Made by a program: the position numbers and the translations under genes. A stretch of DNA of 31,763 nt from Baffinella frigidus (taxonomy: Eukaryota > Cryptophyceae > Cryptomonadales > Baffinellaceae), in NCBI GenBank assembly GCA_026770585.1, contig MU646497.1:188424-220186 (forward strand). The letters are read 5' to 3'. Position 1 is the first letter of the stretch, and the number at the start of each line of letters is the position of its first letter. Positions 3,681 to 31,657 of the stretch are shown in pieces. The notes beneath the pieces are model-generated. The model worked only from the letters and a program-made list of their open reading frames with translations, was not told where the DNA came from and made no database searches.

Positions 3681-3767
3681 GTGCTGTCCATGCCCGTCAA
3701 CGAAGCGCTTGTCGCCACGGTGCTCCGCCACGAGAACCGCCTCCCTTCTGCTGTCGCCCGCCTCCAG
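3681..3767 (+). CDS. Exon candidate 3, unknown protein
   Basis: Exactly 29 codons between the acceptor GGGGCGCAG and the donor CTCCAG|GTTCGC, phase 0 at both ends. The peptide starts VLSMPVNEALVATVLRHEN and ends LPSAVARLQ, and would be mostly helical. The last 20 codons are repeated with the same donor at 3881-3940, after a CT microsatellite. The phase agrees with the neighbours at 3374-3625 and 4640-4771. I do not recognise the family. Confidence 0.55.
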
Positions 3768-3809
3768 GTTCGCCCCGGTTCCTGCTGTTACTATGCATCA
3801 GGTAACACC

Positions 3810-3866
3810 CTCTCTCTCTCTCTCCCTCTCTCTCTCCCTCTTTCTCTCTCTCTCTCTCTCTCTCTA
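3810..3866 (+). repeat. (CT)n microsatellite
   Basis: CT repeat with CCCTCT interruptions, lying in the intron between exon 3 and its copy. It forms a long pyrimidine tract just before ATGTCAG, so it could strengthen a 3' splice site for the duplicated exon. Confidence 0.95.
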
Positions 3867-3872
3867 TGTCAG

Positions 3873-3940
3873 CACTCTGGCTTGTCGCCACTGTCCTCCG
3901 CCACGAGAACCGCCTCCCTTCTGCTGTCGCCCGCCTCCAG
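3873..3940 (+). pseudogene. Second copy of exon 3 (5'-shortened)
   Basis: From 3881 it encodes the same 20 residues (LVATVLRHENRLPSAVARLQ) as 3708-3767, with the same donor CTCCAG|GTTCGC. Differences are few and silent (ACG to ACT, GTG to GTC). The 5' part differs: after ATGTCAG the exon would start in phase 2, not phase 0, so direct replacement of exon 3 would shift the frame. It is either a recently duplicated spare exon or an alternative exon. Confidence 0.6.
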
Positions 3941-4022
3941 GTTCGCCCCGGTTTCGAAGCAGCTCCAGGTTTGCCCGGTTTTGAAGTTCAGCAGCTTTTT
4001 ATTTTTATGAATGCTTTTTCGA

Positions 4023-4185
4023 AGGCCACCACGACAGCTGTTACTATGTATGCCAGCAGTTTACATGGTTAGCAGCGTTTTCAACGGGTAGCAACATTTC
4101 ATATGGCCACCACAACAGCCGTTACTATGCATGACAGCAGGTGTATACGGATAGCAGCGTTTTCTACGGTTAGCTGCATTTCCTG
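4023..4185 (+). repeat. ~79-bp tandem duplication
   Basis: Two units starting GGCCACCACGACAGCTGTTACTATG and GGCCACCACAACAGCCGTTACTATG, each continuing with CAGCAG and GGTTAGCAGCGTTTTC-type segments. The fragment CTGTTACTATGCATCAGG also occurs at 3783-3800, so the unit derives from the intron after exon 3. Confidence 0.8.
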
Positions 4186-4277
4186 TGGTTGGCATCATTT
4201 CCCAGACCTCAAAAGTTTGAAATATCTGCATACTTTGTCGAACCCCGCGACACGGGCGCTAGCTGGCAACGTTGGTG

Positions 4278-4646
4278 TTTTCCGGGCCATGCGCTGCTGA
4301 AACGTGGCGTTTTTCGGGTCGCGCGTTGCTGAAATCCCGAAACGTGGCGTTTTCCGGGTCGTGCGCTGCTGACACGTGGCGTTTTACGGGTCGTCGTGCG
4401 CTGCTGAAACGTGGTGTTTTTCGGGTCGGGCGCTGCTGAAACGTGTTGTTTTCCGGGTCGCAAGCTTCTAAAACGTGGTGTTTCACGGGTCGTACGCTGC
4501 TGAAACCCCGAAACGTGGCGTTTTCAGGGACGTGCGCTGCTGAAACGTGGCGTTTCCCGGGCCGTGCGCTGCTGAAATCCCGAAACGTGGCGTTTTCAGA
4601 GTCGTGCGCTGCTGAAATCCCGAAACGTGGCGTTTTCAGGGTCGTG
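4278..4646 (+). repeat. Minisatellite of 32- and 40-bp units ending at a splice acceptor
   Basis: Ten units of the form GCGCTGCTGAAACGTGGCG + TTTTCCGGGTCGT. Short units are 32 bp; long ones are 40 bp because they contain an extra TCCCGAAA. The last unit runs directly into the exon at 4640: its TTTTCAG is that exon's acceptor and GGTCGTGCGCTGC is the exon's first codons. The array therefore looks like repeated copies of an intron-exon junction. Long open frames on both strands here are by-products. Confidence 0.9.
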
Positions 4647-4771
4647 CGCTGCGACTTCCGCGGCGGACGGGCGTGGACCGACCCCTTTTCGAAACGCTGA
4701 CCAAGCTTCTCAAGGAGTCGGTCGAGGATGACTACTGCTTCCCGATGCTCCGCTTCGACTTTGTCGAACAG
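4640..4771 (+). CDS. Exon candidate 4, unknown protein
   Basis: 132 bp, 44 codons, between the acceptor CGTTTTCAG and the donor GAACAG|GTGCAG, phase 0 at both ends. The sequence has clear protein character: GVDRPLFETLTKLLKE, then SVEDDYCFPMLRFDFVEQ, with G/C-biased third positions. The intron after it begins immediately with telomere-like TTTAGGG repeats. The end (LRFDFVEQ) has a degenerate echo at 5029-5055 (LRFDFIDL). Family not recognised. It is among the best exon candidates in the window. Confidence 0.6.
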
Positions 4772-4862
4772 GTGCAGGGTGTAGGGTGTAGGGTTCAGGG
4801 TTTAGGGTTTAGGGTTTAGGGTTCAGGGTGCAGGGTTCAGGGTGCAGGGTGTTGGGTTCAGG
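4772..4862 (+). repeat. Telomere-like heptamers (G-rich) starting at a splice donor
   Basis: GGTGCAG, GGTGTAG, GGTTTAG and GGTTCAG units begin at the GT of the exon 4 donor. Orientation is opposite to most arrays in the window (G-rich on this strand). Confidence 0.9.
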
Positions 4863-5055
4863 CGCTCAGAGTTCGTGGGGTAACTTAGGCGCTCAGAGTT
4901 CATTGGGTAACTTTCGGATGCAGGGAAAGTAGCTTACGGTGTCGGACAACGGTAGGCCCTAGTGCGCGTAGGACCGCGTCTCGTGAGCCATAGGAGCCAC
5001 TGCTCGTCTATCGGGGACGATAGGGGTCAATTCTCCGCTTCGACTTTATCGACCT
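4863..5055 (+). pseudogene. 28-bp tandem pair and a partial copy of exon 4
   Basis: GGCGCTCAGAGTTCGTGGGG and GGCGCTCAGAGTTCATTGGG form a two-unit tandem at 4861-4916. Further on, 5029-5055 (TTCTCCGCTTCGACTTTATC) matches the last codons of exon 4 with two conservative changes and is followed by GTGTCC at the same place as the true donor. Only about nine codons remain. Confidence 0.5.
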
Positions 5056-5091
5056 GGTGTCCCACCGATGATCAAATTCTCTGTGTACCAG

Positions 5092-5338
5092 GAACCTTGA
5101 AACGGTGCGCCTACACACGGTGTACGACATTGACAACTCTTGTCAAGTCGGCAATTCGTCAAGTCGGAAGCGGACAAGTCCTTTGAGAATTGCTCTAGTC
5201 TGGGACAGCGGTGAATCATCTCCTCGCTTCGAGACGCCCCGTGGGGTTGACATTTGCGTCTCAGCGTGGGCAGCGCTCATGAAACCTGTTGGGTTTGTTC
5301 CGAGATGCATCATCGGCAGCCAAACGGCTGCAGTCTGA
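5092..5338 (+). CDS. Open frame, uncertain, unknown product
   Basis: After GTACCAG the frame is open for about 80 codons to a TGA at 5336-5338. It contains RLHTVYDIDNSC and ALVWDSGESSPRFETPRGVD. Third positions are not strongly biased, and overlapping open frames exist on both strands out to about 5564. No donor is obvious. It may be a real exon, a decayed mobile element gene or chance. Confidence 0.25.
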
Positions 5339-5811
5339 TGGAAGTCGGCGTGCGTCAATGTTGGAACGAGTGTGCCAGACGCCTGCCCGAGGGGGATCAC
5401 ACCATGATGTGATCGAGGGCGCACCACCTTTTGAACGCGATGCCTCTTTGCAGGTTGATATGCCCGGAGCGGCCACGAAATCAGTCTACCTATCCCCCGT
5501 CAAACCGACTGGGGGGGGGGTCCAAGCTGTACAGGTGCGACTCCCTTTTCGAAGTTTCTTGTAGCCTCTGGAATGGTGCCCTTGATCTCTGGGGGTTACT
5601 CTCATCGGAAAACGCGTTGATGTGGGGTTCCCACCACGCAAGAGTGTAGGGCAGAGTGGCCTGCAGGAGAAATAGCCAGATCTGGCCATTTTGAAAAGTT
5701 CATAAGTCAACATTCTCCGCCGAGAAAAATCGAAATTTCGGAAAGTTGATACAAATTCCGTGTGGACTAACTTGTTTTCCCAGGTCAGTCTTACACTCTT
5801 GCGTGGCACGG

Positions 5812-6048
5812 ACGATTTCTCCCACGGCCGATTTCTCCCACGGCAGATTTCTCCCACGGCCGATTTTTCCCATGGACGATTTCTCCCACGGCCAATTTTT
5901 CTCACGGACGATTTCTCCCACGGACGATTTCTCCCACGGACGATTTTTCCCACGGCCGATTTCTCCCACGGCCGATTTCTCCCACGAACGATTTCTCCCA
6001 CGGATGATTTCTCCCACGGACGATTTCTCCCACGGACGATTTCTCCAA
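5812..6048. repeat. 16-bp tandem repeat, ~15 units
   Basis: The unit GATTTCTCCCACGGCC (or ...GGAC) repeats with few changes. Because 16 is not a multiple of three and the unit lacks stops in most frames, it creates long open frames on both strands rich in Pro-Trp-Glu-Lys or Phe-Ser-His-Gly; these are not genes. The flanks at 5688-5785 and 6131-6210 are related to each other (TTTTGAAA, GTCAACATT, TCCCAGG). Confidence 0.95.
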
Positions 6049-6319
6049 CGTTGTCAGCATGCGCCATTGGAACAGGGGAGGTATTCTCGATGGCTCCTGC
6101 ACGAGACGCGGTCCAAGATTCATTAGAGGCAATTTTGAAATAGTCCTATGACTTGAGTATGTGGGGCAGGTCAACATTTTCCGTTGTTTCTGATTTATGT
6201 TTAACTGTCCCAGGAGCACTAGGGGCACGCGACGCGGTGCTAGGTGCACTAGGGCCCACCGTTGTCCAACACCGTATGCTACTTTCTCTTGACCCGAACG
6301 TGACCCCATGAACTCTTGA

Positions 6320-6471
6320 GTGCCTACACCCTAAACTCTAATCCCTTAACCCTGAGCCCTGAGCCCTGACCCCTGACCCCCGACCCCTGACCCCTGACCC
6401 CTGACTCCCGACCCCTGACCCCTGACCCCTGACCCCCGACCCCTGACCCTGACCCCTGACCCCTGACCCCT
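6320..6471 (+). repeat. Telomere-like / CCCTGAC array
   Basis: Starts with CCCTAAA-type units, then becomes a run of CCCCTGA and CCCCCGA heptamers up to the left end of the MITE at 6473. The right flank of that MITE resumes with CCCTGACCCC, so the element probably inserted into the array. Confidence 0.9.
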
Positions 6472-6472
6472 A

Positions 6473-6615
6473 CCACTCAGCAGCGACCGTGGACCTTTTC
6501 GCCTGGAATGAATTCAAGTTGAAATTCCGGATATGCTAGAGGGCAATGGATAAAATTCTAGTACAAATCGTTCAGGTGGACTGTATCTGTGAAGCCCCAG
6601 GTGGCTGCTAAGTGG
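6473..6615 (+). mobile_element. MITE family A, copy in a telomere-like array
   Basis: 143 bp from CCACTCAGCAGC to GCTGCTAAGTGG. It is close to the copy at 8325-8463 over its length (GGACCTTTTCRCCT near the left end, GTGAAGCCCC near the right). Confidence 0.9.
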
Positions 6616-6644
6616 ACCCTGACCCCAACACCTGACGAATGCAG

Positions 6645-6790
6645 GCAGTGCGGCGGGGGCTGCAACAACAGGCAAATTTATGTCAATGAAATTTACTAAA
6701 CACAATGCGTTTTACTAGTAATATTCAAGCATCTTTGCTGGCAAAGACAGACGAGGAGGCGGTCGAGCTGGCGGCGATCCTGGATGCACA
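6645..6790 (+). pseudogene. Copy 1 of the 7136 exon, split by a family B remnant
   Basis: After the acceptor CGAATGCAG it reads AVRRGLQQQ. It is then broken by a family B arm (about 6672-6737) and resumes at 6738 with LAKTDEEAVELAAILD before diverging. Against the intact exon most changes in the second part are silent, plus Gln to Glu. The copy cannot be translated through as it stands. Confidence 0.7.
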
Positions 6791-6873
6791 CCATTGGAAT
6801 CAATGAAAATTACTACACGAATGCTTTAATATTACTAGTAAAACGCATTGTGTGTGGTAAATTTCATTGACAG
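6676..6873. mobile_element. Inverted pair of family B-like arms around an exon fragment
   Basis: 6680-6735 is the near-exact reverse complement of 6817-6872 (ACACAATGCGTTTTACTAGT core). The region between them contains the second part of the pseudo-exon above, so the two arms bracket host sequence. Confidence 0.75.
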
Positions 6874-6910
6874 AAAGTTTAATGAAAGCCGTTTCTCTAT
6901 GGGATTGCAG

Positions 6911-6976
6911 GCTGTGCGGCGGGGGCCGCAACAGCAGAAGCTGGCGAAGACAGACAGGAGGCTGTCGCCGTGTGCT
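6911..6976 (+). pseudogene. Copy 2 of the 7136 exon, frameshifted
   Basis: After GGATTGCAG it matches AVRRG-QQQKLAKTD, then loses one base (GACAGG against GACCAAG), which shifts the frame. It runs into unrelated sequence near 6977. Confidence 0.65.
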
Positions 6977-7014
6977 ACCTTCCATGCAGCCGCCACTTAC
7001 CCTATGCACTCTGA

Positions 7015-7112
7015 GAGCCTACACCCTACACCCTTGACCCTTCCCCCTTCCCCCTTTCCCCTTCCCCCTTCCCCCTCCCCCCTTCCCCCTTCCCTCTGAC
7101 CTCTTCCCTCTG
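7015..7112 (+). repeat. C-rich CCCTTCC array
   Basis: CTACACCC units pass into CCTTCCCC repeats and end with CTCTGACC units. The array sits immediately upstream of the acceptor of the intact exon at 7136 and provides a pyrimidine-rich 3' intron end. Confidence 0.9.
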
Positions 7113-7135
7113 ACCCCAACACACGACGAATGCAG

Positions 7136-7242
7136 GCAGTGCGGCGGGGGCTGCAACAGCAGAAGCTGGCGAAGACAGACCAAGAGGCTGTCGAGCTGGC
7201 GGCGATCCTCGATGAATACTCCCTCATGTCCAAACGCCCCTC
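7136..7242 (+). CDS. Exon candidate 5, possible start of a Cys-loop receptor domain
   Basis: 107 bp between the acceptor GACGAATGCAG and the donor CCCCTC|GTGAGC. It starts in phase 0 and ends two bases into a codon. The peptide reads AVRRGLQQQKLAKTDQEA, then LAAILDEYSLMSKRP. If spliced at GTGAGC it joins in phase with 7993 to give ...LMSKRPSWKPETG. The pattern of leucines, then Tyr, then Arg-Pro before the first strands is typical of the N-terminal helix of pentameric ligand-gated channels. If the donor is not used, TGA at 7244-7246 would end the protein after RPS. Three damaged copies surround it (6645, 6911, 7415). Confidence 0.6.
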
Positions 7243-7272
7243 GTGAGCCCCCCGCCCTCACCAAACCACTTG

Positions 7273-7415
7273 AGAATGCTAGAGGGGCCTATTTAAAACC
7301 GAACATATAAAGTCTTTACTACGCAAATGCTCAACTTTGTACCAGGATCAGATAAAAGTAACCTCGTGCGTGGTATAATTTTTGCCGGGCACGAGGTTAC
7401 TTTACCTTATCCTGG
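7273..7415. mobile_element. MITE family C fragment with a nested hairpin
   Basis: AGAATGCTAGAGGGGCCTAT at 7273 matches the ends of the family C element at 10991-11166. It is then replaced by a separate hairpin at 7342-7415, whose arms CCAGGATCAGATAAAAGTAA and its complement are about 27 bp long. The hairpin ends exactly where a partial copy of exon 5 resumes. Confidence 0.7.
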
Positions 7416-7446
7416 ATGAATACTCCCTCATGTCCAAACGCCCCTC
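7416..7446 (+). pseudogene. Partial 3' copy of exon 5 with donor
   Basis: Identical to 7211-7242 (DEYSLMSKRP) and followed by the same CTC|GTGAGCCC. The flanking MITE and hairpin separate it from the intact exon. It may be the footprint of a duplication that accompanied the insertion. Confidence 0.7.
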
Positions 7447-7562
7447 GTGAGCCCCGCGCCCTCACCATACCCCCTCGACCCGCACCCCATCCCAACACCT
7501 TTTTCTGCTGCAACAGTGTTAGCCGGATTCTCCGCCAGCCAGCTAACAGCCAATCAGACACC

Positions 7563-7703: not shown

Positions 7704-7992
7704 ATCCTCATTATATGCGTACTCAGTCACCATACCCAGCTCATGTTTCCAGCACCCTCAGTTGAGTTTGGCAATATACGAAGCTGATATACGAAACGTT
7801 ACGTGGGATGTTCCACTCGTGCCGCCTCGAATTCGGTACTGAACACGCTCCATCCTCATTTCCCAGCGGGCGTATACACGTTACCAGCCAACGCTTCGTA
7901 TATCAGCTTCAGCATCACAGCTAATATACGAAGCAGCGTGCGGCTAACATACGAAGCGACGTGCGGCTAATATACGACGTGACGTGCGGCAG
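7704..7992 (+). repeat. TATACGAAGC repeats; no other feature seen
   Basis: ATACGAAGCTGATATACGAA at 7775 is inverted at 7889-7908. The unit CTAATATACGAAGC-GCGTGCGG is then repeated three times at 7919-7991, leading up to the acceptor of the exon at 7993. Confidence 0.75.
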
Positions 7993-8091
7993 GTGGAAGC
8001 CCGAAACAGGGGTCAAGTTGCCTGTGGGGGTGTCAGTGCGCCTCAACCTAGACTACATCTCGCGCGTCGGCCCCGTCGACGACAGGCAACC
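7993..8091 (+). CDS. Exon candidate 6, Cys-loop receptor-like strand region, truncated by a MITE
   Basis: After the acceptor GTGCGGCAG one base completes the split codon from exon 5. The frame then reads WKPETGVKLPVGVSVRLN, followed by LDYISRVGPVDDRQ. The alternating PVxVxVxLxL run followed by YIS-V--VD is the hallmark of the first beta strands of pentameric ligand-gated ion channel extracellular domains. A family B MITE begins at about 8094 and no donor is visible before it, so the exon is probably cut short. The family call rests on this short motif only; Cys-loop cysteines and membrane helices were not found in this window. Confidence 0.45.
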
Positions 8092-8093
8092 TC

Positions 8094-8576: not shown

Positions 8577-8581
8577 GGAGA

Positions 8582-9145: not shown

Positions 9146-9498
9146 GCACCTCGAACACCCCCACGTAGCGCCCTGCGTGGCATTCGATCCTCATCCCACC
9201 CTCATTTGCTCCACATACACACAAACATCCGCGCCCCAGCTTTCCCTCTTTTTGTCCGCGGACACCCGCGACGTTGTCTCCGCCCAATCCCCCAGCTAAC
9301 CACAACACCACCCCCCCCTCTCGATTATCAGGTCATCTCACACGAGTCAGCCGTGGGGCTCCTCACGGTATATCTGCAATGCCCGGGTATACGATTAGCG
9401 AGGAAGAAGAGAATACAGAGACGGGCGCGTGGGTTGCACCACAGCACCCACCCCCCTCTTCTGCTTCCCCAACCCAAAATCCCATCCCCAAACGACAG

Positions 9499-9742
9499 GT
9501 GGCGACCAAGAACGTTGAACACAAAAAGGTCTTTCAAAGTCGTAGGAGGGGGGCTCCTACCGTAGGCAATCCGTAGGCTCTGAGTACCTCGCTGGCGTTA
9601 GCTTAGGTGACACCCCCCCTCGCATGCGTCCCCAGCCCTGAACCCCACCCCCCAACAGGTGCCGACCCAGAACGTGGTAGTCGCGGGGCTTCTCCCAGGG
9701 CCGATCCTCGCAGAGACATCAACCTCGAAGACCGTGTAGTAA
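9499..9742 (+). pseudogene. Two damaged copies of the 9870 exon
   Basis: At 9499, after ACGACAG, GTGGCGACCAAGAACGTT matches only the first six codons. At 9659, after CCAACAG, VPTQNVVVAGLLPG is kept, but one extra base after CTCGCAGA shifts the frame and leads to a TAG. Both keep the acceptor. Confidence 0.6.
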
Positions 9743-9869
9743 AACGAAATTTCACCTGCTGACCTTATCCGCGGTTAATGGGGGCACTAGGACCGCGTGA
9801 CCACCTCGTGACCCACCTTTTCACACGAAATCGACCCTGATTGCCATGTCACCTGGCGTGGAACGACAG

Positions 9870-9966
9870 GTGCCGACCAAGAACGTGGTAGTCGCGGGGC
9901 TGCTCCCAGGGTCGGTTCTCGCAGACATCAACCTCGAACCCCCCACGGGCGACCCCCGCACGGTCC
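9870..9966 (+). CDS. Exon candidate 7, unknown protein
   Basis: After the acceptor GAACGACAG the frame reads VPTKNVVVAGLLPGSVLAD, then INLEPPTGDPR. Third positions are G/C-rich. The donor is not clear; CACG|GTCCGC near 9965 is one option, and the frame stays open to about 10070 through lower-quality sequence. The hydrophobic core VVVAGLLPGSVL could be a buried strand. Two broken copies precede it with their acceptors, which supports the 5' border. Family not recognised. Confidence 0.45.
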
Positions 9967-10487: not shown

Positions 10488-10661
10488 TCGTGTGTGATTC
10501 AAGGGCGCGGCACACAGGCCTGATTCATGGGCCCACGAATCAGGCATGTGTAGATATATATCTTTGCCCAGGCTTGCCGCCCAGTGGCCGATGATTCAGA
10601 TTCCCGGGCGTCACCACACAGCCATCCGTGTGTGATTCGAAGGCGCGGCACACAGGCCGGA
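10488..10661 (+). repeat. Direct repeat pair ~35 bp
   Basis: CGTGTGTGATTCAAGGGCGC and CGTGTGTGATTCGAAGGCGC, each followed by GGCACACAGGCC, at 10490 and 10627. GATTCATGGGCCCACGAATC between them forms a small palindrome. Confidence 0.8.
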
Positions 10662-11389: not shown

Positions 11390-11604
11390 ACGCACAGACC
11401 CGCCTTGGGTGCCCGGCCTCTTCCTCCTCTTTGGCATGCAGACAGCCAACGCTCGCCGTGGACTTACTTGGACGCGACTCTGCTACACAACATTGCAATA
11501 ATTATTTTCAACGGGGTTCCACGCCATCTATGGTAAATTTCGTTCCGAGTCACGGCCAAATACGTCATCCTTTAACACAGCATTTCGGAACTCCACATCC
11601 GCAG

Positions 11605-11646
11605 GGGCAGGAGCTCTACGACCAGCTCAACGCCGCACTTCTCGAA
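11605..11646 (+). pseudogene. 5' copy of the 11954 exon
   Basis: After ATCCGCAG it encodes GQELYDQLNAALLE, two silent changes and one Phe-to-Leu change from the longer copy, then runs into repeat sequence with a stop. Confidence 0.6.
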
Positions 11647-11953: not shown

Positions 11954-12114
11954 GGGCAAGAGCTCTACGACCAGCTCAACGCCGCGTTTCTCGACCCAGA
12001 CTCGCCCCTCCACGACGCAACCAAATACCCCCTCCTCTCGTCCGCCTCACGATTCATCCACCGCAGTACGCCGCACGCTGTCGTGTACGCCCCCCCCTCC
12101 CCCTCCTGCCCCTG
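11954..12114 (+). CDS. Exon candidate 8, unknown protein, several copies
   Basis: After the acceptor CTCCGCAG the frame reads GQELYDQLNAAFLDPDSP, then LHDATKYPLLSSASRF and STPHAVVYA, with strong third-position bias to C. The 3' end is uncertain: GTC|GTGTAC is a possible donor near 12092, otherwise the frame runs into poly-C and stops at 12112-12114. Degenerate copies follow at 12210-12310 and 12460-12545, and the tail (GCTGTTGTGTATGCC) recurs twice more before the gap at 12886. Family unknown; the peptide would be soluble and mixed helix/loop. Confidence 0.5.
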
Positions 12115-12205: not shown

Positions 12206-12545
12206 TCGGACCCAGACTCGCCCCTCCACGACGCAACCAAATACCCCCTCCCCTCCTCTCGTCCGCCTCCCGATTCATCCTCTGCAGTACGCCGCACGCC
12301 GTCGAGTATGCCCCCCCACCCCCTTCTGTCCCCGGAGTGCCTATGCGTGAGCTATTTCCTACCTTTGGGGCTTTGCAATAGCTGGGTGTGTACCATAGAT
12401 CTTTTAGATGGACAGTTCCCGAAATTAAGTCTACCCAGGTCCGGAATGAGACCATATCATCCCGCCCCTTCACGACGCGACGAAATACCGCCTCCCGATT
12501 CATCCTCCGTAGTACGCCGCACGCTGTCGTGTATGCCCCTCCATC
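12206..12545 (+). pseudogene. Two further degenerate copies of exon 8
   Basis: 12210-12310 keeps CTCGCCCCTCCACGACGCAA and the ACGCCGCACGCCGTC end but has a 5-bp duplication (CCTCC) that shifts the frame. 12460-12545 is shorter and has lost internal codons. Between them lies the repeat at 12347. Confidence 0.6.
12347..12460 (+). repeat. Interspersed repeat 'GTACCATAGATCT', copy 1
   Basis: Matches 14606-14715 in order: GAGC-ATTTC-TAC, GGGTGTGTACCATARATCT, AGATGGACRGTTC, CGAAATTAA-TCTAC. About 75-80% identity by eye; no coding sense. Confidence 0.75.
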
Positions 12546-12546
12546 C

Positions 12547-12670
12547 CCCTGAACCCTGAACCCTGAACCCTGAACCCTGAACCCTTGACCCTGAACCCTG
12601 AACTCTGAACCCTGAACCCTAAACTCTTCTCCCGAACCCGTAAACCCTGAACCGTAATTCCTAATCCCCA
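12547..12670 (+). repeat. Telomere-like CCCTGAA array
   Basis: CCCTGAA units decaying into CCCGTAA, CCTAATT and CCCAAATT at the right end. Confidence 0.9.
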
Positions 12671-12885: not shown

Positions 12886-12971
12886 NNNNNNNNNNNNNNN
12901 NNNNNNNNNNNNNNNNNNNNNNNNNNNNNNNNNNNNNNNNNNNNNNNNNNNNNNNNNNNNNNNNNNNNNNN
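12886..12971. other. Assembly gap (86 N) between poly-C tracts
   Basis: Undetermined bases flanked by more than 15 C on the left and 8 C on the right, with further poly-C at 12763 and 12802. Sequencing probably failed in the homopolymer. Frames and spacing across it are unreliable. Confidence 1.
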
Positions 12972-13068: not shown

Positions 13069-13221
13069 GTGATGGAGCGTGATGGAGCATCGCGACAGTG
13101 GGGGAGGGTGGGGGGGCATCAGAGGATAGAAAGCCCTCCTCTGCACATATGTTGATGTGCTGAAGAGTTGGTATTGTGATGGAACGTTGGTGGTGGGGTG
13201 CGGGAGGTGGGGGCGGTGCAG

Positions 13222-13239
13222 AAGTTATTAGCCGAAAAG
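13222..13239 (+). pseudogene. Truncated copy of the coiled-coil exon
   Basis: After GGTGCAG, AAGTTATTAGCCGAAAAG encodes KLLAEK with three silent changes from 13358-13375, then joins directly to the GGGGTGTACACGCG repeat. Confidence 0.55.
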
Positions 13240-13357
13240 ATCGGGGTGTACACGCGATAGGGCGCCAGGACTGCGCATGAGTGATCGAAGTTTGGTGTCA
13301 GGAGTGATGGAGCTTTGGTGTCGTGGTGGCAGGGTACGGGAAGCGGGGGCGGCGCAG

Positions 13358-13415
13358 AAGTTGTTGGCCGAGAAGCAACAGGAGCAGGCCAAGGCCGAGG
13401 CCGCCACACTAGCAG
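13358..13415 (+). CDS. Charged coiled-coil exon, best copy
   Basis: After the acceptor GGCGCAG: KLLAEKQQEQAKAEAATLA, then donor GCAG|GTCAGC, 58 bp. The Ala/Glu/Lys/Gln composition with leucines about every seven residues suggests a helical coiled-coil segment. Related copies at 13222, 13631 and 13795 keep mostly silent or conservative changes. Function unknown; such segments usually mediate oligomerisation. Confidence 0.5.
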
Positions 13416-13630: not shown

Positions 13631-13679
13631 GTTGAGAGGCAGCAGGACCACGCCAAGGCCGAGGCCGCCTCTCTCGCAG
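13631..13679 (+). CDS. Second copy of the coiled-coil exon
   Basis: VERQQDHAKAEAASLAG, ending with the same type of donor, CTCGCAG|GTGCCT. Upstream, GAGACTAGAGAGAGGCCT matches the sequence at 13481-13501 downstream of the first copy, so a unit of exon plus intron was duplicated. No clean acceptor directly precedes it. Confidence 0.4.
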
Positions 13680-13794
13680 GTGCCTTCACTGCCCCCACTT
13701 CCCGCACCTTGCCAACACCAACGCTCCACCACAACACCAAACTTCGAATACTCATGCACAGTCCATTACAACACCAAACTTCGACCACGAAGTT

Positions 13795-13855
13795 TTTTGG
13801 CCGAGAAGAAGCAGGAGCAGGCTAAGGCCGAGGCCGCCTCTCTCGCAAGTGCAGA
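13795..13855 (+). pseudogene. Third copy of the coiled-coil exon
   Basis: FLAEKKQEQAKAEAASLA in frame from about 13796, but the donor GCAG|GT has become GCAAGTGCAG and the expected AAG acceptor context is lost. GCA|AGTGCA offers no GT at the same place; a shifted GT two bases later could still work. Confidence 0.45.
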
Positions 13856-16880: not shown

Positions 16881-16897
16881 CATGGCTGTTTGTGCAG

Positions 16898-17092
16898 ATC
16901 AAATTACCGGAGGCGTGTGAGATGTGCCAGACGGCGTGATCAGCTGTTCCCCAGGACAGCTGACGGTTCACTGTAGCGATCTCTCATGTACACCCCTTGC
17001 GAATGTCAGATAGTATGGGACAGTAACGCTCTCGTGACCATGGCGCCTGGGGCAGATCAAGTTCACGGAGGCGTGTGAGCTGTTCCAGACAG
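16898..17092 (+). pseudogene. Two damaged copies of the second GYF_2 exon
   Basis: 16898-16935 begins after GTGCAG with ATCAAATTACCGGAGGCGTG and diverges after about 12 codons. 17056-17092 begins after GGGGCAG with ATCAAGTTCACGGAGGCGTG and reads IKFTEACELFQT until it is cut by the MITE at 17093. A scrap of the exon end (GCCGGAACCATGGTGTCC) reappears beyond the MITE at 17311. Confidence 0.7.
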
Positions 17093-17287
17093 CCACCCTG
17101 GAGGGGAGTTGCGGCCAATCTTGAATAACCTTCTATCGCAAAAGTTGACAGGATTTATACCACTAAAATACTTATTAGACCTTTTTGTACCAGATCCATT
17201 CATCACGGTGCAGCCGCATTACGGCTGCATCTCAAGGGGGTTTGACTTAAGCATGCTCAAAATACCATAATGTTCCCTCCAGGGTGG
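17093..17287. mobile_element. MITE family H, copy inside an exon copy
   Basis: 195 bp, ends CCACCCTGGAGGG and CCCTCCAGGGTGGG. The copy at 20523-20717 is about 85-90% identical across the whole length. Inner CAGCCGCATTACGGCTG palindrome. Confidence 0.9.
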
Positions 17288-17415
17288 GAATGCAGTACCT
17301 CTATTGACGCCGGAACCATGGTGTCCACCGATATATCTGATATCGAAGCAACCATGGTGTCCACCATTATCTGATATCTGACAGTGCCGCACTCGTCTGG
17401 TTGGCTCTGGGGCAG

Positions 17416-17490
17416 ATCAAGTTCCCGGAGGCATGTGAGCTGTTCCAGACAGGCGCCATCACCCCCGACACCATGGTGTGGTTCAAGCAG
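17416..17490 (+). CDS. Exon with second half of a GYF_2-like domain
   Basis: 75 bp, exactly 25 codons, between the acceptor CTGGGGCAG and the donor AAGCAG|GTATCT, phase 0 at both ends. It reads IKFPEACELFQTGAITPDT, then MVWFKQ. Joined in phase to the exon at 15809-15895 this gives Gly-Pro followed by I-x-F-x-E-A-x-x-L-F-x-x-G-x-I-x-x-D-T-x-V-W, the conserved GYF_2 pattern, lacking only the final Gly-Met and Trp that would lie on a further exon. Domain call good; the parent protein is unknown, though GYF_2 is known from RME-8/DNAJC13 and some bacterial-type membrane proteins. Confidence 0.65.
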
Positions 17491-18240: not shown

Positions 18241-18381
18241 CACTACATGTGCATACACTAAATCCCAAACCCTTCAAACCAGGCGGGGTCGAAGTGGGAC
18301 AAGTTAGTGATGCACCCAGGGCTGCATTCAGCGCTTCGGGCGTCGGGGATCCCCGCAGCTCTCTCGCCGCGAGGGGAGGAT

Positions 18382-18536
<155 letters not shown>

Positions 18537-18600
18537 CTCTGTGTCTGACTCTGCAGTATCTTTTTCAACTACGATATTACCACATTCTGTTACCTGAAAT

Positions 18601-18648
18601 GAACACTTCCTCGACCTTGAGGAGGAGGAGCGCATCGTGCGTCCCCGC
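18601..18648 (+). CDS. Acidic exon, copy 2
   Basis: Same 16 residues as copy 1, continuing PIRT. The preceding sequence differs (CCTGAAAT), with no strong acceptor; ACTCTGCAG at 18555 is the nearest pyrimidine-preceded AG but does not lie in the same open frame without a stop check. Possibly an alternative exon. Confidence 0.5.
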
Positions 18649-20124: not shown

Positions 20125-20204
20125 CGCTGCGCTTGCGTGGAGAGGGTCGCTAACCCTCTCCACTCGTCGCTAACCCTCTCCACTCTCCCCTGGAGCCTCA
20201 ACAG

Positions 20205-20243
20205 AGCCAGCAGAAGCGTGAGAGCCAACGCCGCCACGAGAAG
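20205..20243 (+). pseudogene. Copy 1 of the basic exon (short)
   Basis: After CCTCAACAG it encodes SQQKRESQRRHEK, one silent change from copy 2, then diverges. It keeps the acceptor; no donor at the expected place. Confidence 0.5.
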
Positions 20244-20365: not shown

Positions 20366-20452
20366 AGCCAGCAGAAGCGCGAGAGCCAACGCCGCCACGA
20401 GAAGACAGTCCGCAAGCCCCCGGCTACGTCAAGCTCTCCGAAAAGAGGTGCG
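20366..20452 (+). CDS. Basic exon, best copy
   Basis: After ATCGACAG the frame reads SQQKRESQRRHEKTVRKPP, then ATSSSPKR. Highly basic and Ser-rich. Three copies exist (20205, 20366, 20838). Conservation runs further between copies 2 and 3 (ESQR-HEK-VRKPP--SSS), with Arg/Leu, Thr/Ser and Ala/Asp exchanges, so the peptide frame is believable. The end is unclear; AAAAGAG|GTGCGC is a possible donor. It could be a nucleic-acid binding or disordered segment. Confidence 0.45.
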
Positions 20453-20522
20453 CTCCCCAGCTTGTCCCGTTGAGGCGAGGGATTGCCACCCCAGATGTCG
20501 AGAGGAGACACGATTTCAACAG

Positions 20523-20717
20523 CCACCCTGGAGGGGGATTGCGGCCAATCCCGAATAACCCTTGATCGCAAAAGTTGACAGGATTTATACCACTAAAATA
20601 CTTATAAGACCGTTTTGTACCAGATCCATTCATCACGGGGGACTGAGATCTCAGTCCATTCCAAGGGGAGTTGACTTAAGAATGCTCAAAATACCCCCAC
20701 CCTGCCTCCAGGGTGGG
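20523..20717. mobile_element. MITE family H, copy 2
   Basis: Ends CCACCCTGGAGGG and CCTCCAGGGTGGGG. It carries a central GGGACTGAGATCTCAGTCC palindrome where copy 1 has CAGCCGCATTACGGCTG, so the central stem has been replaced or has compensatory changes. Confidence 0.9.
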
Positions 20718-20837: not shown

Positions 20838-20957
20838 TGCGAGAGCCAACGCCTCCATGAGAAGTCTGTCCGCAAGCCCCCGGACATGTCAAGCTCTAAA
20901 AAGAAAGAGGGAAGCGCACCTCTTTTCTTTTTTTTGAAAAGAGGTGCGCTTCTCAGC
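20838..20957 (+). pseudogene. Copy 3 of the basic exon with an inverted duplication
   Basis: CESQRLHEKSVRKPPDM then SSSKKKEG. At 20908 it enters a hairpin (GAAGCGCACCTCTTTTC and GAAAAGAGGTGCGCTTC) whose second arm is the normal continuation seen in copy 2 at 20443 (GAAAAGAGGTGCGCTCC). No acceptor is visible (TTAACTGCGAG). Confidence 0.5.
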
Positions 20958-21030
20958 TTCTTCCCGATGCCAGTTTGCCTTGTACCCTGATGTGTCCGCC
21001 ACATCGCGGTATTAGAGTAGAACGCTAGAT

Positions 21031-23048: not shown

Positions 23049-23376
23049 GTGATATCACTTGGTGCAGGGGCACTTTCACTGCTCTAAACCTCTAGGGTGT
23101 AGAAGTGTAGGGCCCTAAACCTCTTAACCCTGACATGTCGCAACCTCTTAACCCTGACATGTCGATAACCTGTTGTATCCCCGCGAGCGCAGACGCGACA
23201 GGTCAGGGTCAAGAGGTATAGGTCACACGAGAGAGAAGATACTCTCGAGGGACCTACCCAGAGTCGTATATCACCAAGTATACAACGTATACGAAGATTA
23301 AGAGGTTTATGGCCCTAAACTTCTAAACCCTCGCGGTTTAGAGCAGTGAAAGTGCCCTTGCACCAAGTGACATCAC
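23049..23376. mobile_element. Fold-back element, 42-bp arms, 328 bp
   Basis: GTGATATCACTTGGTGCAGG (then GGCACTTTCACTGCTC) pairs with the right end with two mismatches over 42 bp. The interior holds AACCTCTTAACCCTGACATG in tandem and GAGCGCAGACGCGACAGGTC. The latter copies the sequence just upstream of the exon at 23608, so the element may have captured an intron end. Confidence 0.9.
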
Positions 23377-23523: not shown

Positions 23524-23607
23524 GTTACGAATTACGGGCGTGGGGTTATGGGTTGGGGCTTAGGGCTTAGGGCTGACGTTGACCACTCCCGAGCGCAGAC
23601 GCGACAG

Positions 23608-23752
23608 GGGGTCCCGCTGAACATCATTTCCGAAGACGAAGAGACAGACGCCTGGTCGGATACGAGCAGTCCCAAGAACCGTTCGGTCCCGCCCCTCTCA
23701 ACAGAGCCAGCAGAACCGCGAGCAGAACCGTGGTCTTCGCAGATCGGTCCAT
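23608..23752 (+). CDS. Ser/Glu/Pro-rich exon
   Basis: After the acceptor GACGCGACAG the frame reads GVPLNIISEDEETDAWSD, then TSSPKNRSVPPLSTEP and AEPRAEPWSSQ. It looks like a disordered acidic region. A similar acidic motif, ISEEEENTETGAW, is encoded at 9386-9430. The end is placed at TTCGCAG; the next GT is in ATCG|GTCC. The junction CTTCGCAGATCGGTCCAT recurs at 25518, so it may itself be a duplicated border. Confidence 0.45.
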
Positions 23753-24899: not shown

Positions 24900-24951
24900 C
24901 GTCCGGCATCGAATGGCAGCGCGGCAGGCCTGCAGGAGTCGGCCTCGCAAG
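24900..24951 (+). CDS. Short exon candidate
   Basis: RPASNGSAAGLQESASQ between the acceptor TGCGTGCAG and the donor TCGCAAG|GTTGGT, phase 0 to 1. A partial second copy at 25296-25321 (GLQESTSQ) keeps the donor. Small and polar; function unknown. Confidence 0.4.
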
Positions 24952-24964
24952 GTTGGTGCCTTGA

Positions 24965-25290
24965 TTGTATATTGGATTTTATTGTATATTGTATTTTGGT
25001 TTATTGTATATTGTATGTTGGTACATGTAGTGAAGCAATATTTTACACCCCCCCGCACGTCCATTGATTGTATATCGTGTTTTGGTACGTATAGTGAAGC
25101 AAGATTTTACACCCCCCCGCATGTCCATTTATTGTATATCGTATTTTGGTATGTATCCCTTAAGTGGCCATGCCGTCAAATTTGACGGCCAAGAGGTCCT
25201 AGGCAGGTCCTAGGGCCCTACGGTAGGGCGTATGAGCCTACAGGCCACTTAAGGGATAGTGAAGCACGATTTTACACCCCCCCTGCAGCT
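24965..25290 (+). repeat. ~63-71-bp AT-rich tandem repeat
   Basis: Units with TTGTATATYGTRTTTTGGTA and AGTGAAGCAAGATTTTACACC followed by seven or eight C. At least three units; the last is interrupted by a MITE at 25156-25256. The first copy of the short exon lies before the array and the second after it. Confidence 0.85.
25156..25256. mobile_element. MITE inserted in a tandem repeat unit (empty site known)
   Basis: 101-bp hairpin with ends TCCCTTAAGTGGCC and GGCCACTTAAGGGA, inner CGTCAAATTTGACG palindrome and CCTAGGCAGGTCCTAGG. The uninterrupted neighbouring unit reads GGTACGTATAGTGAAG; here GTA and TAG are split by the element. Confidence 0.9.
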
Positions 25291-25295
25291 TCGAC

Positions 25296-25321
25296 AGGCC
25301 TGCAGGAGTCGACCTCACAAG
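25296..25321 (+). pseudogene. Partial copy of the 24900 exon
   Basis: GCCTGCAGGAGTCGACCTCA CAAG|GTTGATGCC against GCCTGCAGGAGTCGGCCTCG at 24926; one Ala-to-Thr change. Confidence 0.5.
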
Positions 25322-25350
25322 GTTGATGCCTCCCACGATGCTCTTTCCAC

Positions 25351-27453: not shown

Positions 27454-27498
27454 GTCAGTAACCCCCCCCCCCTTTAGGCCCGCCTCGGGAGTAATCAC

Positions 27499-27675
27499 CT
27501 GGTGCAGTTCCTGGCACTCCCGCACGAATCCGAGATGCGCCTCGACGGAGAAGGTAGGCGGGAGGGTCCAGATGGACTGCACGCTCCCGCGCTTGGCCAT
27601 GAATGCCGGCATGGCTTCGAAGCGCCCGAGGCGGAGGGAGTTGAAGCCCACGTCGCAGCTTATGGAGTAGCGCCG
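27499..27675 (-). CDS. Minus-strand exon, 59 codons, unknown protein
   Basis: On the minus strand the acceptor ACGTTTTTTGCAG precedes 177 bp with phase 0 at both ends and the donor CACCAG|GTGATT. The frame reads RRYSISCDVGFNSLRLGR, then FEAMPAFMAKRGSVQSIW and TLPPTFSVEAHLGFVREC, ending QELHQ. Codon third positions are overwhelmingly C or G, stronger than any plus-strand exon here, and the plus-strand frames across it look poor. This is one of the most convincing exons in the window and shows that at least one gene runs on the minus strand. I do not recognise the family. Confidence 0.65.
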
Positions 27676-27702
27676 CTGCAAAAAACGTTGTAGGGTTCAG
27701 AA

Positions 27703-28310: not shown

Positions 28311-28325
28311 TGACCATCTAGTTTG

Positions 28326-28481: not shown

Positions 28482-28562
28482 GTAACGACATCACGGTCTA
28501 CCGGGGACCTCCAGCCACGAAAAGAGAACCAGATCAGGGTGATGAGGCCTGTGGTAAACCCC

Positions 28563-28602
28563 CCTGCAGCCTAACGGCTGAGCCTGGAGTCTGCAGGGGA
28601 AA
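28563..28602. repeat. Small hairpin CCCCTGCAG
   Basis: CCCCTGCAGCCTAACGGCTG... with CTGCAGGGG; inner GCCTAACGGC. Confidence 0.7.
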
Positions 28603-28661
28603 TCAACGTTTGCAATCATTCGGTTTGGATCACTTCTGGTGGCTGGTGGCCTTGCTCGGAT

Positions 28662-28804
28662 AGCGAGGGGGCAAATGGAACGGGTATTTATTGGATTCAG
28701 TGCCCCCATGTGGGCACTAAATCCCCCCTAAGTTGGACACGACTCGTACCAATCTTTGAATTCGTACCCGAATTCACAAGATCCGTTTGCCCCCTCGCTA
28801 TTCC
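28662..28804. mobile_element. MITE-like element, GATAGCGAGGGGGCAAA ends
   Basis: GGATAGCGAGGGGGCAAATG at the left and GTTTGCCCCCTCGCTATTCC at the right. Inner GTGCCCCCATGTGGGCAC palindrome and GAATTCGTACCCGAATTC. Confidence 0.85.
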
Positions 28805-28999
28805 ACTACGGATCTCACCTGGGGGGGCGCTTGTGCAGAGGGGTCCAGCGGAGGCACCACCCATGGCGGGACTGCGTGCCTGTTTCGGTCGCCCACCAGA
28901 ATCTGTTACATTTCCGGCAAGTTCCAGGCCCCTCGGGATGCATTGCTTGTGTATTCTCCTCTATCAACCCCCCCTGTCCGGAGAATCGTTTTGGATTGA
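28805..28999 (+). CDS. Open frame, uncertain
   Basis: To the right of the element the frame reads WGGACAEGSSGGTTHGG, then TACLFRSPTRICYISGKF and APRDALLVYSPLSTPP, with a TGA at 28997-28999. Protein-like in places, but two other plus frames are also open and no splice borders stand out. Confidence 0.25.
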   Translation, partial: TTDLTWGGACAEGSSGGTTHGGTACLFRSPTRICYISGKFQAPRDALLVYSPLSTPPVRRIVLD

Positions 29000-29059
29000 A
29001 AGCGTATCCCGCATAGCATGCGTGCTTCGACAGATACACAGCCTGGGAGTGTCCATAGG

Positions 29060-29185
29060 TTTCTTGGCAGAGTTCTGGGAGGTTTGAGTTCTGGGAGCGT
29101 TGAGTTCTTGCCACATTTCTGGACACTTTTGGTTCTGAGAGGGTCGATTTTGAGTCTGAGTTCTGGGAAGGTTGAGCTGCAAGGT
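29060..29185 (+). repeat. GAGTTCTGGGAG tandem, degenerate
   Basis: Six to seven loose units of GAGTTCTGGGAGGTT, 15-20 bp, several interrupted. Confidence 0.75.
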
Positions 29186-29356
29186 TTCAGCGTCTGGAAG
29201 AGCTCAGCTGGGAGGGTTTCTGGCAGGGGTGGGAGCCTGATGGGCGGAGAAGTGAAGTCGCGGGGCAGCTGTGCGCCCCATTGTGCCGGTAGCCCTTGGA
29301 ACGTGTGCTCCTGTCGAGGGTTGGTCCCAGGAGGCAATCACACTTTGCTTCAATGC

Positions 29357-29515
29357 GCATACGATTTCCGTTGAGGGGAACACCTGCGAATACGATTTCC
29401 GTAACACAATTTCCGTGTAGCCTAACACGATTTCCGTAACACGATTTCCGTGTACCAAACACGATTTCCGTGTAGCCCTACACGGATTTCCGTGTAGGGT
29501 GACGGATTTCCGTTT
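29357..29515 (+). repeat. ACACGATTTCCGTGTA tandem
   Basis: About nine copies of ACACGATTTCCGT with spacers GTAGCCTA, AAC or GTACCAA. The unit is itself nearly palindromic (ACACG...CGTGT). Confidence 0.9.
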
Positions 29516-29667
29516 AGGGCGCACGCGCGACGTATGCTCTAACCCCTAAACCAGTTCGGATTTAGGGTCTATGATTCAGGTTTTATGGTCAGCGGGGCCT
29601 CGGCTTGATAGCAAGGTGCTGGACGACTCTCTTCAAAGCGCACTGCACGCCCCCCACAACCTCCGAG

Positions 29668-29829
29668 CCACATAGCGGGCTTCAAATGGATTTTCGGGCT
29701 CTGATAGCCCGATTTTCCGTTACCTTAACCGTAGGAACCCCCCCTATGTCCCTACGGATTGCCTACCGTAGGGTCCTGGGTCTTATTGCTTAGGGGTTAT
29801 TCGAAATCCCTTCGAAGTCCGCTGTGTGG
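29668..29829. mobile_element. MITE family F, inverted complete copy
   Basis: Ends CCACATAGCGGGCTTCAAAT and CCTTCGAAGTCCGCTGTGTG. Inner CGTAGGAACCCCCCCTATGT is the complement of the interior at 11229-11389. Confidence 0.9.
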
Positions 29830-29953
29830 ATCGAACCTGTTCCCCTCCGCGATCGAACCCGACGGAAGCATGGAAGGAAAAGCTTCGTCTTCGTAGCCGC
29901 GGCGGCGGGCTCCCGCGGACCCATCTCTGTGGAGGCAGGCATGCAATTTCATG

Positions 29954-30083
29954 AGGGAACACTTTTAATTTAAAAAACTTTGGTGATGAACTTTACTACA
30001 CAGAACGATCTTTACTAGTGATATTAAAGCAAACGTGTAGTAATTTTCAACGAAATCCTGTTCTTTGAATCTAAAGTGTTTCC
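29954..30083. mobile_element. MITE family B, distant copy
   Basis: GGGAACACTTTTAATTTAAA at the left and TCTAAAGTGTTTCC at the right; inner TTTACTACACAGA and CGTGTAGTAATTTTC; loop TTTACTAGTGATATTAAAGC as in 481-507. Confidence 0.75.
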
Positions 30084-30396
30084 ACATTAAACTGAGGTGG
30101 ACCATCCATAGATCCAACTAGAATCCTGAGGCAGGAATATGTCAAGATGTGTTCGCCTGTGCTCGACCGCTGTTTGGACCTCAATTATTCAATTGTGGTG
30201 CACCATTCAAAGATCAACTTAGACGACAGCTACCCTCGCTGTGAGGATCACAGGCCGCATGCCTGGAGCATGTGTACATCGCGGTCACGTTACCAAACAT
30301 CGGAGTTCCCCACTACAACAGAGTTCCCTACCGAGTCACCTACCCATACTCGCAGACCTCAAAAGCTACCCTCACATGCACGAACCAACACCGAGG
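30084..30396. other. No gene supported
   Basis: An open frame from 30147 runs 234 codons to 30851, but it crosses a hairpin and two copies of a repeated block and has ordinary composition (Ser, Thr, Pro, Arg), so I do not call it. The left edge (GGACCATCCATAGATCCAAC) could be a remnant of another repeat. Confidence 0.35.
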
Positions 30397-30450
30397 TAGC
30401 CTGCCCCGCCTCCAAATCAGCCATGACGACCAGATCGGCTGTACCGCAGG
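30397..30450 (+). pseudogene. Copy 1 of a duplicated exon-like block
   Basis: CTGCCCCGCCTCCAAATCAG CCATGA-GACCAGATCGGC occurs here and at 30663-30702. Frames SLPRLQISHDDQIG and ACPASKSAMTTRSAVPQ are both open; the preceding GAG|GTAGCC is a weaker acceptor than in copy 2. Confidence 0.35.
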
Positions 30451-30586
30451 GAGGAGGCTGCACGTGTAGACTGTGGACAAACTCACTGCGGCACTCCCGA
30501 GGCTGCACGGGTCAAACTCCCGTAGAACAAACTCCCGTGCATGCACAGGACAAACTCCCGAGGCTGCACTCCCGTGCAGCCTCCTC
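30451..30586. repeat. Hairpin GAGGAGGCTGCACG with ACAAACTCCCG tandem
   Basis: GAGGAGGCTGCACG and CGTGCAGCCTCCTC are exact inverted ends. Inside are four ACAAACTCCCG-like units and two internal CCGAGGCTGCAC pieces. Confidence 0.8.
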
Positions 30587-30660
30587 ACTTCCAAAACCCC
30601 TCGCAGACCGCAACAGTGGCGCACATTCACGAAACCCCCTTAGGATCCCCACGCGGGCAG

Positions 30661-30800
30661 GTACCTGCCCCGCCTCCAAATCAGCCATGAAGACCAGATC
30701 GGCAGTGCTCCCCCTCGCCTGTCCCCCCGGCTGCCTCCCCGGCAGCCCCGGCGCCTTCTCGGTCCTCGCCCACGCACCCCACGCCCGCCGCACCCACGTT
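30661..30800 (+). CDS. Copy 2 of the duplicated block, possible exon
   Basis: After the acceptor GCGGGCAG the frames YLPRLQISHEDQIGSAPP and TCPASKSAMKTRSAVLPLAC are open. The second continues as a Cys/Pro/Ala-rich stretch to 30851. Base changes against copy 1 do not clearly favour either frame. Low confidence. Confidence 0.3.
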
Positions 30801-31110
30801 GGCCTGTGTTTGTGGTGCGTCAGGGCACGGACTGGCGTTTGGAGGTTGTAGAGTTGAAAGTGAGATGCGTAAGGTCGATGGGGGGGCACTGGACGAATGC
30901 TGTCTGAAGCGCTTCAGAGCAGCCACCCGTGCATTCTGGAGCGGTTCACACTTCAGACCACCCACGTTGGCCTGTGATGGTGATGACACACGTCACGTTG
31001 TCCTGCGTTTGCGATGACAAACGTGTGATCACAAACACAGGCCATTTGTGATCACACTTCTGAAGCGCTTCAGACCAGCCACCCGTGCATTCTGGAGCGT
31101 GTGTGCCGCG
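30785..31110. repeat. Direct repeats CTGAAGCGCTTCAG and CCCACGTTGGCCTG
   Basis: CTGAAGCGCTTCAGAGCAGC with CACCCGTGCATTCTGGAGCG at 30904-30943 and again at 31062-31101. CCACCCACGTTGGCCTGTG is near 30787 and 30958. TGTGATCACAAACACAGGCC / GGCCATTTGTGATCACA at 31023-31056 forms a hairpin. Confidence 0.8.
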
Positions 31111-31164
31111 CAGGATGGATGCATCACACGCATAGGCTGGCGCTACGATCCTTTACGAGCGAGG

Positions 31165-31215
31165 GATGTCGAACCATCGAGCGATCGAGCGAGCGAGCGA
31201 TCGAGCGAGAAAGAG
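31165..31215 (+). repeat. GAGC/GATC microsatellite
   Basis: GAGCGATCGAGCGAGCGAGC-type units, about 45 bp. Confidence 0.85.
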
Positions 31216-31339
31216 ACATAGAGACATGGCGGACGACTAAAATCATCTGAGCCATGATGATGTGGATCCGGACCAGTTGGTCGTCAATAAACAACTCTCT
31301 CTCTTTCTCGCGGAAGAGGCCGGGTGGTTGCGGCAAGCC

Positions 31340-31600
31340 ACTGTACCCATGTCCAGGCGGGCGAGCAAGCGAGAAAAACAAGATGGAGGAAAAGGGGGAC
31401 GGTTGCTGGAGGAAGTGAGGGGCGGTTGGTGACATAGAGACATGGTGCAAGAGGGCGGGCAATTGGGGAAACCGACAGACCTATGTCCAGGCGGAAGAGG
31501 TTGCCCGAGAGCGAGAGAGCGAGAGAAAAAAAAAGATCGAGGAAAAGGAAGGCGGTTAATGGCGGATGAGGGGGGCGGTTGGTGGCTGACCTATGTCCAG
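31340..31600 (+). pseudogene. Two upstream copies of the 31601 exon with leader
   Basis: CCCATGTCCAG|GCGGGCGAGC at 31347 and CCTATGTCCAG|GCGGAAGAGG at 31480 repeat the acceptor and first codons of the exon at 31601. After a few codons they run into GAGA-rich and A-rich tracts and stops. The unit is about 110-135 bp and also contains GGCGGTTGGTG. Confidence 0.65.
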
Positions 31601-31657
31601 GCGGAAGAGGTTGCCCGCGCGAAAGTGTTTGCCGACGATCGAAGAGGTTCTCCGCGA
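31601..31657 (+). CDS. Charged helical exon at the right edge
   Basis: Exactly 19 codons, AEEVARAKVFADDRRGSPR, between the acceptor TATGTCCAG and the donor CCGCGA|GTGAGT, phase 0 at both ends. The donor is a perfect consensus. The sequence resembles the Ala/Glu/Lys-rich coiled-coil exon at 13358 in style, not in detail. Two decayed copies precede it. The next exon would lie beyond the window. Confidence 0.5.

Follow-up and report, generated by a model that had tools for sequence, protein, structure and literature searches.

Half-exon copies of fixed polarity in a Baffinella frigidus gene region are probably relics of short tandem duplications across exon-intron junctions

A 31,763-base stretch of the Baffinella frigidus genome (assembly GCA_026770585.1, contig MU646497.1, positions 188,424 to 220,186, forward strand; hereafter the window, in whose numbering all positions are given) is predicted to be part of one or more plus-strand genes in which small exons alternate with long introns, and next to many of these exons lie partial copies of them. 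We aligned 20 partial copies at ten predicted exons, 10 upstream and 10 downstream of the intact exon (Table 1), and found a fixed polarity. All 10 of the upstream copies start at exon base 1 or 2 and lack the exon end, and all 10 of the downstream copies lack the exon start and keep the 3' side, with copy 12463-12550 also lacking the last 7 bases. When each exon was counted once, the two-sided probability of this polarity was 0.002. The fixed order of intact and truncated versions that tandem duplication at exons predicts was found in 20/20 cases. We consider it probable that the copies are relics of short tandem duplications, each of which crossed one exon-intron junction and stayed hidden in the intron because the intact exon remained, and that hairpin elements and simple-repeat arrays probably spread them later. 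The partial copies are likely silent leftovers rather than spare exons, and the pattern is real, dense, and orderly, with a cause that is likely ordinary. The count of 20 includes two weak copies (3432-3459 and 5030-5059), and a weak likeness of 10551-10601 to exon 10883 was left out of it.

Table 1. Predicted exons and their copies in the window (E, expect value).
Feature	Position	Strand	Evidence
Predicted exon, intact	3681..3767	+	Open frame, AG/GT edges
Upstream copy of exon 3681, bases 2-29, without acceptor	3432..3459	+	Weak, 23/28; adjoins hairpin element 3467-3615
Downstream copy of exon 3681, bases 27-87 and donor	3880..3953	+	Versus 3707-3780, 97%, E 1e-29
Predicted exon, intact	4640..4771	+	Coding scan, edges
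Downstream copy of exon 4640, last 27 bases and donor	5030..5059	+	Weak, score 36
Predicted exon, intact	7136..7242	+	Coding scan, edges
Upstream copy of exon 7136, acceptor through base 79, with a break at 6672-6736	6619..6786	+	Self-BLAST, alignment
Upstream copy of exon 7136, acceptor through base 58, with a one-base deletion	6903..6967	+	92%, E 9e-20
Downstream copy of exon 7136, bases 70-107 and donor	7409..7471	+	Versus 7205-7267, 95%, E 6e-22
Predicted exon, intact	9870..9962	+	Open frame, edges
Upstream copy of exon 9870, acceptor through base 69, with two bases added	9655..9729	+	Versus 9866-9938, 91%, E 2e-22
Second upstream copy of exon 9870, acceptor through base 17	9491..9515	+	Self-comparison, alignment
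Predicted exon, intact; 3' end uncertain, no GT at set end	11954..12111	+	Edges
Upstream copy of exon 11954, acceptor through base 41, plus 37 intron bases	11568..11645	+	Alignment
Downstream copy of exon 11954, bases 40-158	12209..12332	+	Versus 11993-12112, 88%, E 3e-38
Downstream copy of exon 11954, bases 50-151, without both ends	12463..12550	+	Self-BLAST, alignment
Predicted exon, intact	13333..13415	+	Coding scan, edges
Upstream copy of exon 13333, bases 1-43, acceptor AG lost	13176..13239	+	Alignment
Downstream copy of exon 13333, bases 38-83 and donor	13634..13681	+	Self-comparison, alignment
Downstream copy of exon 13333, bases 25-83 and donor	13789..13850	+	Self-comparison, alignment
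Predicted exon, intact, GYF_2-like	17416..17490	+	Coding scan; Pfam below cut-off
Upstream copy of exon 17416, acceptor through base 37	17047..17092	+	Versus 17407-17452, 96%
Second upstream copy of exon 17416, acceptor through base 46	16894..16942	+	Self-comparison, alignment
Predicted exon, intact	18283..18417	+	Open frame, edges
Downstream copy of exon 18283, bases 98-135 and donor	18599..18648	+	Versus 18380-18429, 90%, E 3e-12
Predicted exon, intact	20366..20447	+	Open frame, edges
Upstream copy of exon 20366, acceptor through base 39, plus 36 intron bases	20169..20243	+	Alignment
Downstream copy of exon 20366, bases 14-82 and donor, with insertions	20839..20959	+	20379-20437/20839-20897, 88%
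Predicted exon, intact, weakly supported as coding	24900..24951	+	AG/GT edges
Downstream copy of exon 24900, from base 23, and donor	25292..25331	+	Versus 24922-24961, 90%, E 2e-8
Pair, possible whole-exon copy, coding unproven	147-210/359-422	+	94%; element-rich spacer of 148 bases, 31 unmasked
Tandem copies outside polarity count	31361-31431/31511-31584; 31478-31507/31588-31617 (100%)	+	Self-comparison
Predicted exon without local copy, best supported as coding	3086..3222	+	Coding scan; homologue P0001

A first-pass annotation, made from the sequence, had described duplicated exon-like segments at ten places, and a local copy was present at each of these by self-BLAST, masked self-comparison, and alignment. 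The expect values of the self-BLAST high-scoring segment pairs there ranged from about 2e-8 to 3e-38, which excludes chance. The annotation had also stated that the copies keep a splice acceptor or donor. This was mostly so: AG was present in 8 of the 9 upstream copies in which the acceptor was aligned at least partly, with the acceptor AG missing from 13176-13239, and GT was present in 7 of the 8 downstream copies in which both donor letters were aligned. The eighth donor case is that of exon 24900, whose end was set two bases short, and its copy at 25292-25331 also reads GT. The claim that copies are usually upstream was not borne out, given the even division of the 20. As read from the alignments, which are local, identity was 211/239 in the intron flank versus 932/1027 in the exon; the flank being nearly as similar as the exon, the copies do not stop at the splice sites. 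The splice letters were probably kept because the outer breakpoint lies further out.

Several kinds of damage had been reported for the copies, and these were found in part. The one-base frameshifts were confirmed for copy 6903-6967, whereas copy 9655-9729 carries two extra bases rather than one. The nonsense change at 13243 falls in the pair 13029/13241, where it creates a new stop in just one of three frames. Both element cuts were recovered: the interruption of copy 6619-6786 holds a hairpin arm (6674-6732), and copy 17047-17092 ends at the start of a dispersed repeat (17089-17288, similar to 20519-20717).

The self-alignment that the annotation had proposed as a check was run with arrays and elements masked, and pairs within 800 bp were taken as local. 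It returned 47 local direct pairs, with offsets of 66 to 698 bp (median 219), and 12 local inverted rows, 4 of them true pairs and the other 8 self-palindromes. At distances above 800 bp the count was 9 direct and 7 inverted pairs, so the excess of direct pairs is a local one (47 versus 4 compared with 9 versus 7; Fisher p = 0.002), and the direct orientation that tandem duplication predicts is thereby found. Many local pairs contain no predicted exon (e.g. 1634/1827, 21865/22148, 22307/22507, 23892/24171, and 26339/26636). Among 800 non-exon controls, 16% had a local direct copy at a score of 40 and 3.3% had an inverted one; the former figure indicates that local direct duplication is general here. 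Of 35 pairs, 18 showed significant collinear homology past the core (on 20 of 70 sides), and the regions 6272-6825 and 6968-7331 share collinear blocks in the same order with insertions. Masked elements and arrays account for 117 of the 148 spacer bases in pair 147/359, 56 of 99 in 3707/3880, and 104 of 170 in 18380/18599.

On the basis of these observations, we propose two kinds of duplicated unit. One that starts within an exon and extends into the following intron would, when duplicated in tandem, leave the intact exon with another exon end and its donor downstream of it. One that starts in the intron and reaches into the exon would leave an acceptor and exon start ahead of the intact exon. 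Neither duplication would alter the message as long as splicing used the sites of the intact exon, and hairpin elements and simple-repeat arrays would later push the copies apart. Units of both kinds break once in the exon and once in the intron, and if the intact exon is kept they give exactly the polarity observed. Staggered breaks repaired by end joining could have given rise to the duplications, as could replication slippage; we favor end joining as the candidate pathway because unrelated spacer is common, and end joining with filler DNA could account for such spacer.

Whole-exon copies were absent from the aligned set; outside it, the pair 147/359 is the sole candidate for one, with its coding status unproven. 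If breakpoints fell uniformly, about 4.7 of the 20 copies would be expected to span the whole exon, compared with the 0 observed (P = 0.003), a rough estimate that uses hand-set unit lengths and takes copies of copies as events. This deficit hints that whole-exon duplications were selected away. In tandem exon duplication with mutually exclusive splicing, whole exon copies are in use. The copies described here are neighboring as in that system, but 0/20 are complete with both splice sites, and the suggestion of the first-pass annotation that they could feed alternative splicing is therefore unlikely.

Several points weigh against the tandem-duplication interpretation. Copies of copies are not independent, and the exons are all predictions, of which one has a homologue. 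The local alignments that gave the flank identity favor similar flanks. No significant extension was found in 17 of the 35 pairs, and the 18 that did extend are an inflated figure because several of the 35 are neighboring fragments of a single event. An inverted copy of an acceptor region is present (13268-13350/13691-13764). Finally, strong local copies occur at 9 of 17 unfiltered coding segments (p = 0.001), and at 6 of 14 when three copy pairs are counted once (p = 0.017), which is above the controls.

One alternative is that insertion or excision of hairpin elements breaks the DNA and that gap repair duplicates the flank, the copies being element scars. With 29 merged palindromic stretches in the window and copies that abut elements at 3459/3467, 6671/6674, 7415/7416, and 17092/17093, this account has some footing, but the spacers of 9655/9866, 11993/12209, 13188/13324, 13370/13634, and 16879/17037 contain no masked element, and we regard it as unlikely.

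The view of the first-pass annotation was that an exon-directed process copies the exon and its splice junction as a unit and lets the spares decay. Our results support local duplication with later decay of the spare copy, but targeting of exons was not shown, as 16% of the controls also have copies. The excess at coding segments speaks for such a process, yet none of the 20 copies is complete, all break inside the exon, and many copies hold no exon. The excess moreover fell to 3 of 9 segments (p = 0.17; p = 0.059 at a score of at least 60) once segments were filtered by hand, a step that dropped the copy hits 6735-6782 and 13797-13838, weak hits, and the minus-strand hits except 27463-27681, and that trimmed one segment to 7928-8083. 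A kept exon changes more slowly than an intron and its copies stay recognizable longer, so an excess is expected even in the absence of an exon-directed process. An earlier comparison, in which 11 of 16 exons had copies versus 26% of 600 controls, was rejected because the exons had been picked partly for their copies and the controls included copies. The preference for exons appears significant in the unfiltered set and not significant after the hand filter, and we consider an exon-directed process quite improbable. The other proposal of the annotation, that the copies are a by-product of a general process, is supported as a possibility, since local direct copies also lie outside exons.

Template switching or templated repair could paste local pieces nearby in either orientation, as the inverted acceptor copy, a further inverted pair (13168-13221/13684-13740), and a small inverted repeat (20911-20952) inside copy 20839-20959 would suggest. 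The acceptor copy and the small repeat make it likely that some template switching occurred too. As the general explanation it is very doubtful, because local pairs are overwhelmingly direct and because pieces pasted anywhere nearby would show the polarity in about half of the cases rather than in 20/20. An assembly artefact, with haplotypes collapsed or wrongly joined, would fit the 86-base N gap (12886-12971) that, with poly-C runs, adjoins the copies of exon 11954, and the 97 to 100% identity of some pairs, but most copies are several percent apart with private insertions and an artefact is not expected to produce polarity, so that this explanation is scarcely credible.

The identity of the predicted gene was examined by homology searches. 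Exon 3086-3222 matched P0001 at 39 of 55 residues (71% identity, E = 1.1e-16), the sole match of the 77-residue query, and the similarity fades about one residue from the predicted donor; this exon has 0 local copies at scores of at least 34. Pfam searches with the ten exon readings returned GYF_2 alone, for exon 17416-17490, at E = 1.6e-4 and 21.8 bits, below the cut-off of 25.8. No family reached the cut-off in plus-strand frames (stops as X) from base 1 to about 29996, where Kazal_1 (E = 0.008) and DUF3915 (E = 0.54) fell below it; on the minus strand the Pfam scan covered selected readings. The joined exons and five further readings, one of them minus-strand, gave no new Pfam family. A 153-residue query had no match in the PDB. 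The 30 PDB chains matched by the GYF-like exon pair were antibodies or receptors with weak scores (best E = 0.054) and were dismissed. Of 7998 candidates scored for a 375-residue exon mosaic, 0 had an E of 1 or less. Apart from exons 3086-3222 and 17416-17490, no exon had a homologue in the searches made. The GYF_2-like pair 17416-17490 and 18283-18417 may resemble RME-8/DNAJC13 proteins.

The window has a G+C content of 53%, and its repeats include CCCTAAA-like heptamer arrays and microsatellites; an Rfam scan of it gave 0 families at the gathering score. A 20-base pattern taken from an element occurred in no viral contig and in one Flavobacterium contig, a match put down to chance. A coding scan blind to duplication gave 11 plus-strand and 9 minus-strand segments at scores of at least 9, compared with 0.65 per strand in shuffled sequence, and scored 757-861 on both strands. 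The highest score (17.6) was that of the minus-strand segment 27463-27681, for which there was no Pfam family and 0 homologue candidates. The segment 7928-8092 is a likely further exon; it ends GACAG|GCAACC with a hairpin element from 8093, so that the donor would either be of the GC type or have been hit by an insertion. By eye, 19 identical bases that end with CAG plus G were seen about 400 bp apart (23184-23202 and 23590-23608), a possible acceptor copy that was not counted. About 100 similar bases flank heptamer arrays in the same relative order at separate places (4771-4985, 6226-6471, and 6968-7115). In the masked self-comparison, 4886-4985 matched 6226-6326 in inverted orientation (84%) and 4886-4939 matched 6968-7021 (80%). 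Some of the telomere-like arrays may thus belong to a dispersed element. A hairpin-like element at 25154-25258, read by eye inside a tandem array, has TA on both sides, which looks like a TA target-site duplication.

The kind of event that we propose has relatives in other systems. In a potato gene, tandem duplication across an intron-exon border created a new intron (PMC4974935); there the duplication gave a new intron and exon in the message, whereas the copies here are broken and predicted to be spliced out. The AGGT model of intron gain (Rogers 1989), in which introns arise from duplicated exon pieces (PMC4974935), likewise has exon sequence duplicated in tandem with its splice letters, but in that model an exonic AGGT segment is doubled to give a new intron and here the units would cross a pre-existing junction. 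End joining at breaks with protruding ends yields small tandem duplications (PMC8355091; PMC5730883) that are, as here, direct, adjacent, and short, and form a common insertion class; they were shown in mammalian cells, whereas end joining is a candidate pathway here. Surveyed direct repeats near intron borders (PMC11782384) are also close to splice sites, but they measure 4 to 30 bp and lie at both borders of one intron, while the present copies are mostly longer and lie at one border. Among the papers listed by a literature search of limited reach, none describes a gene that carries numerous half-exon relics with a fixed polarity. What is unusual here is the number of copies in one window and their fixed polarity, not the kind of event.

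A further reading, which we offer tentatively and hold to be rather doubtful, is a one-way ratchet of intron growth, drawn from one window: units that cross a junction would be invisible and kept, whole-exon units would be seen and lost, and introns would fill with half-exons that bear decoy splice sites, which would fix the polarity. The pattern is a warning to gene-finding programs, as the decoys resemble real exon ends. If the pattern is genome-wide, it would constitute a natural experiment on splice-site choice, with each exon beside a near-identical decoy acceptor or donor. The polarity and the missing whole copies would then be a countable signature of selection filtering duplications at exon edges, and the same signature would track how introns lengthen.

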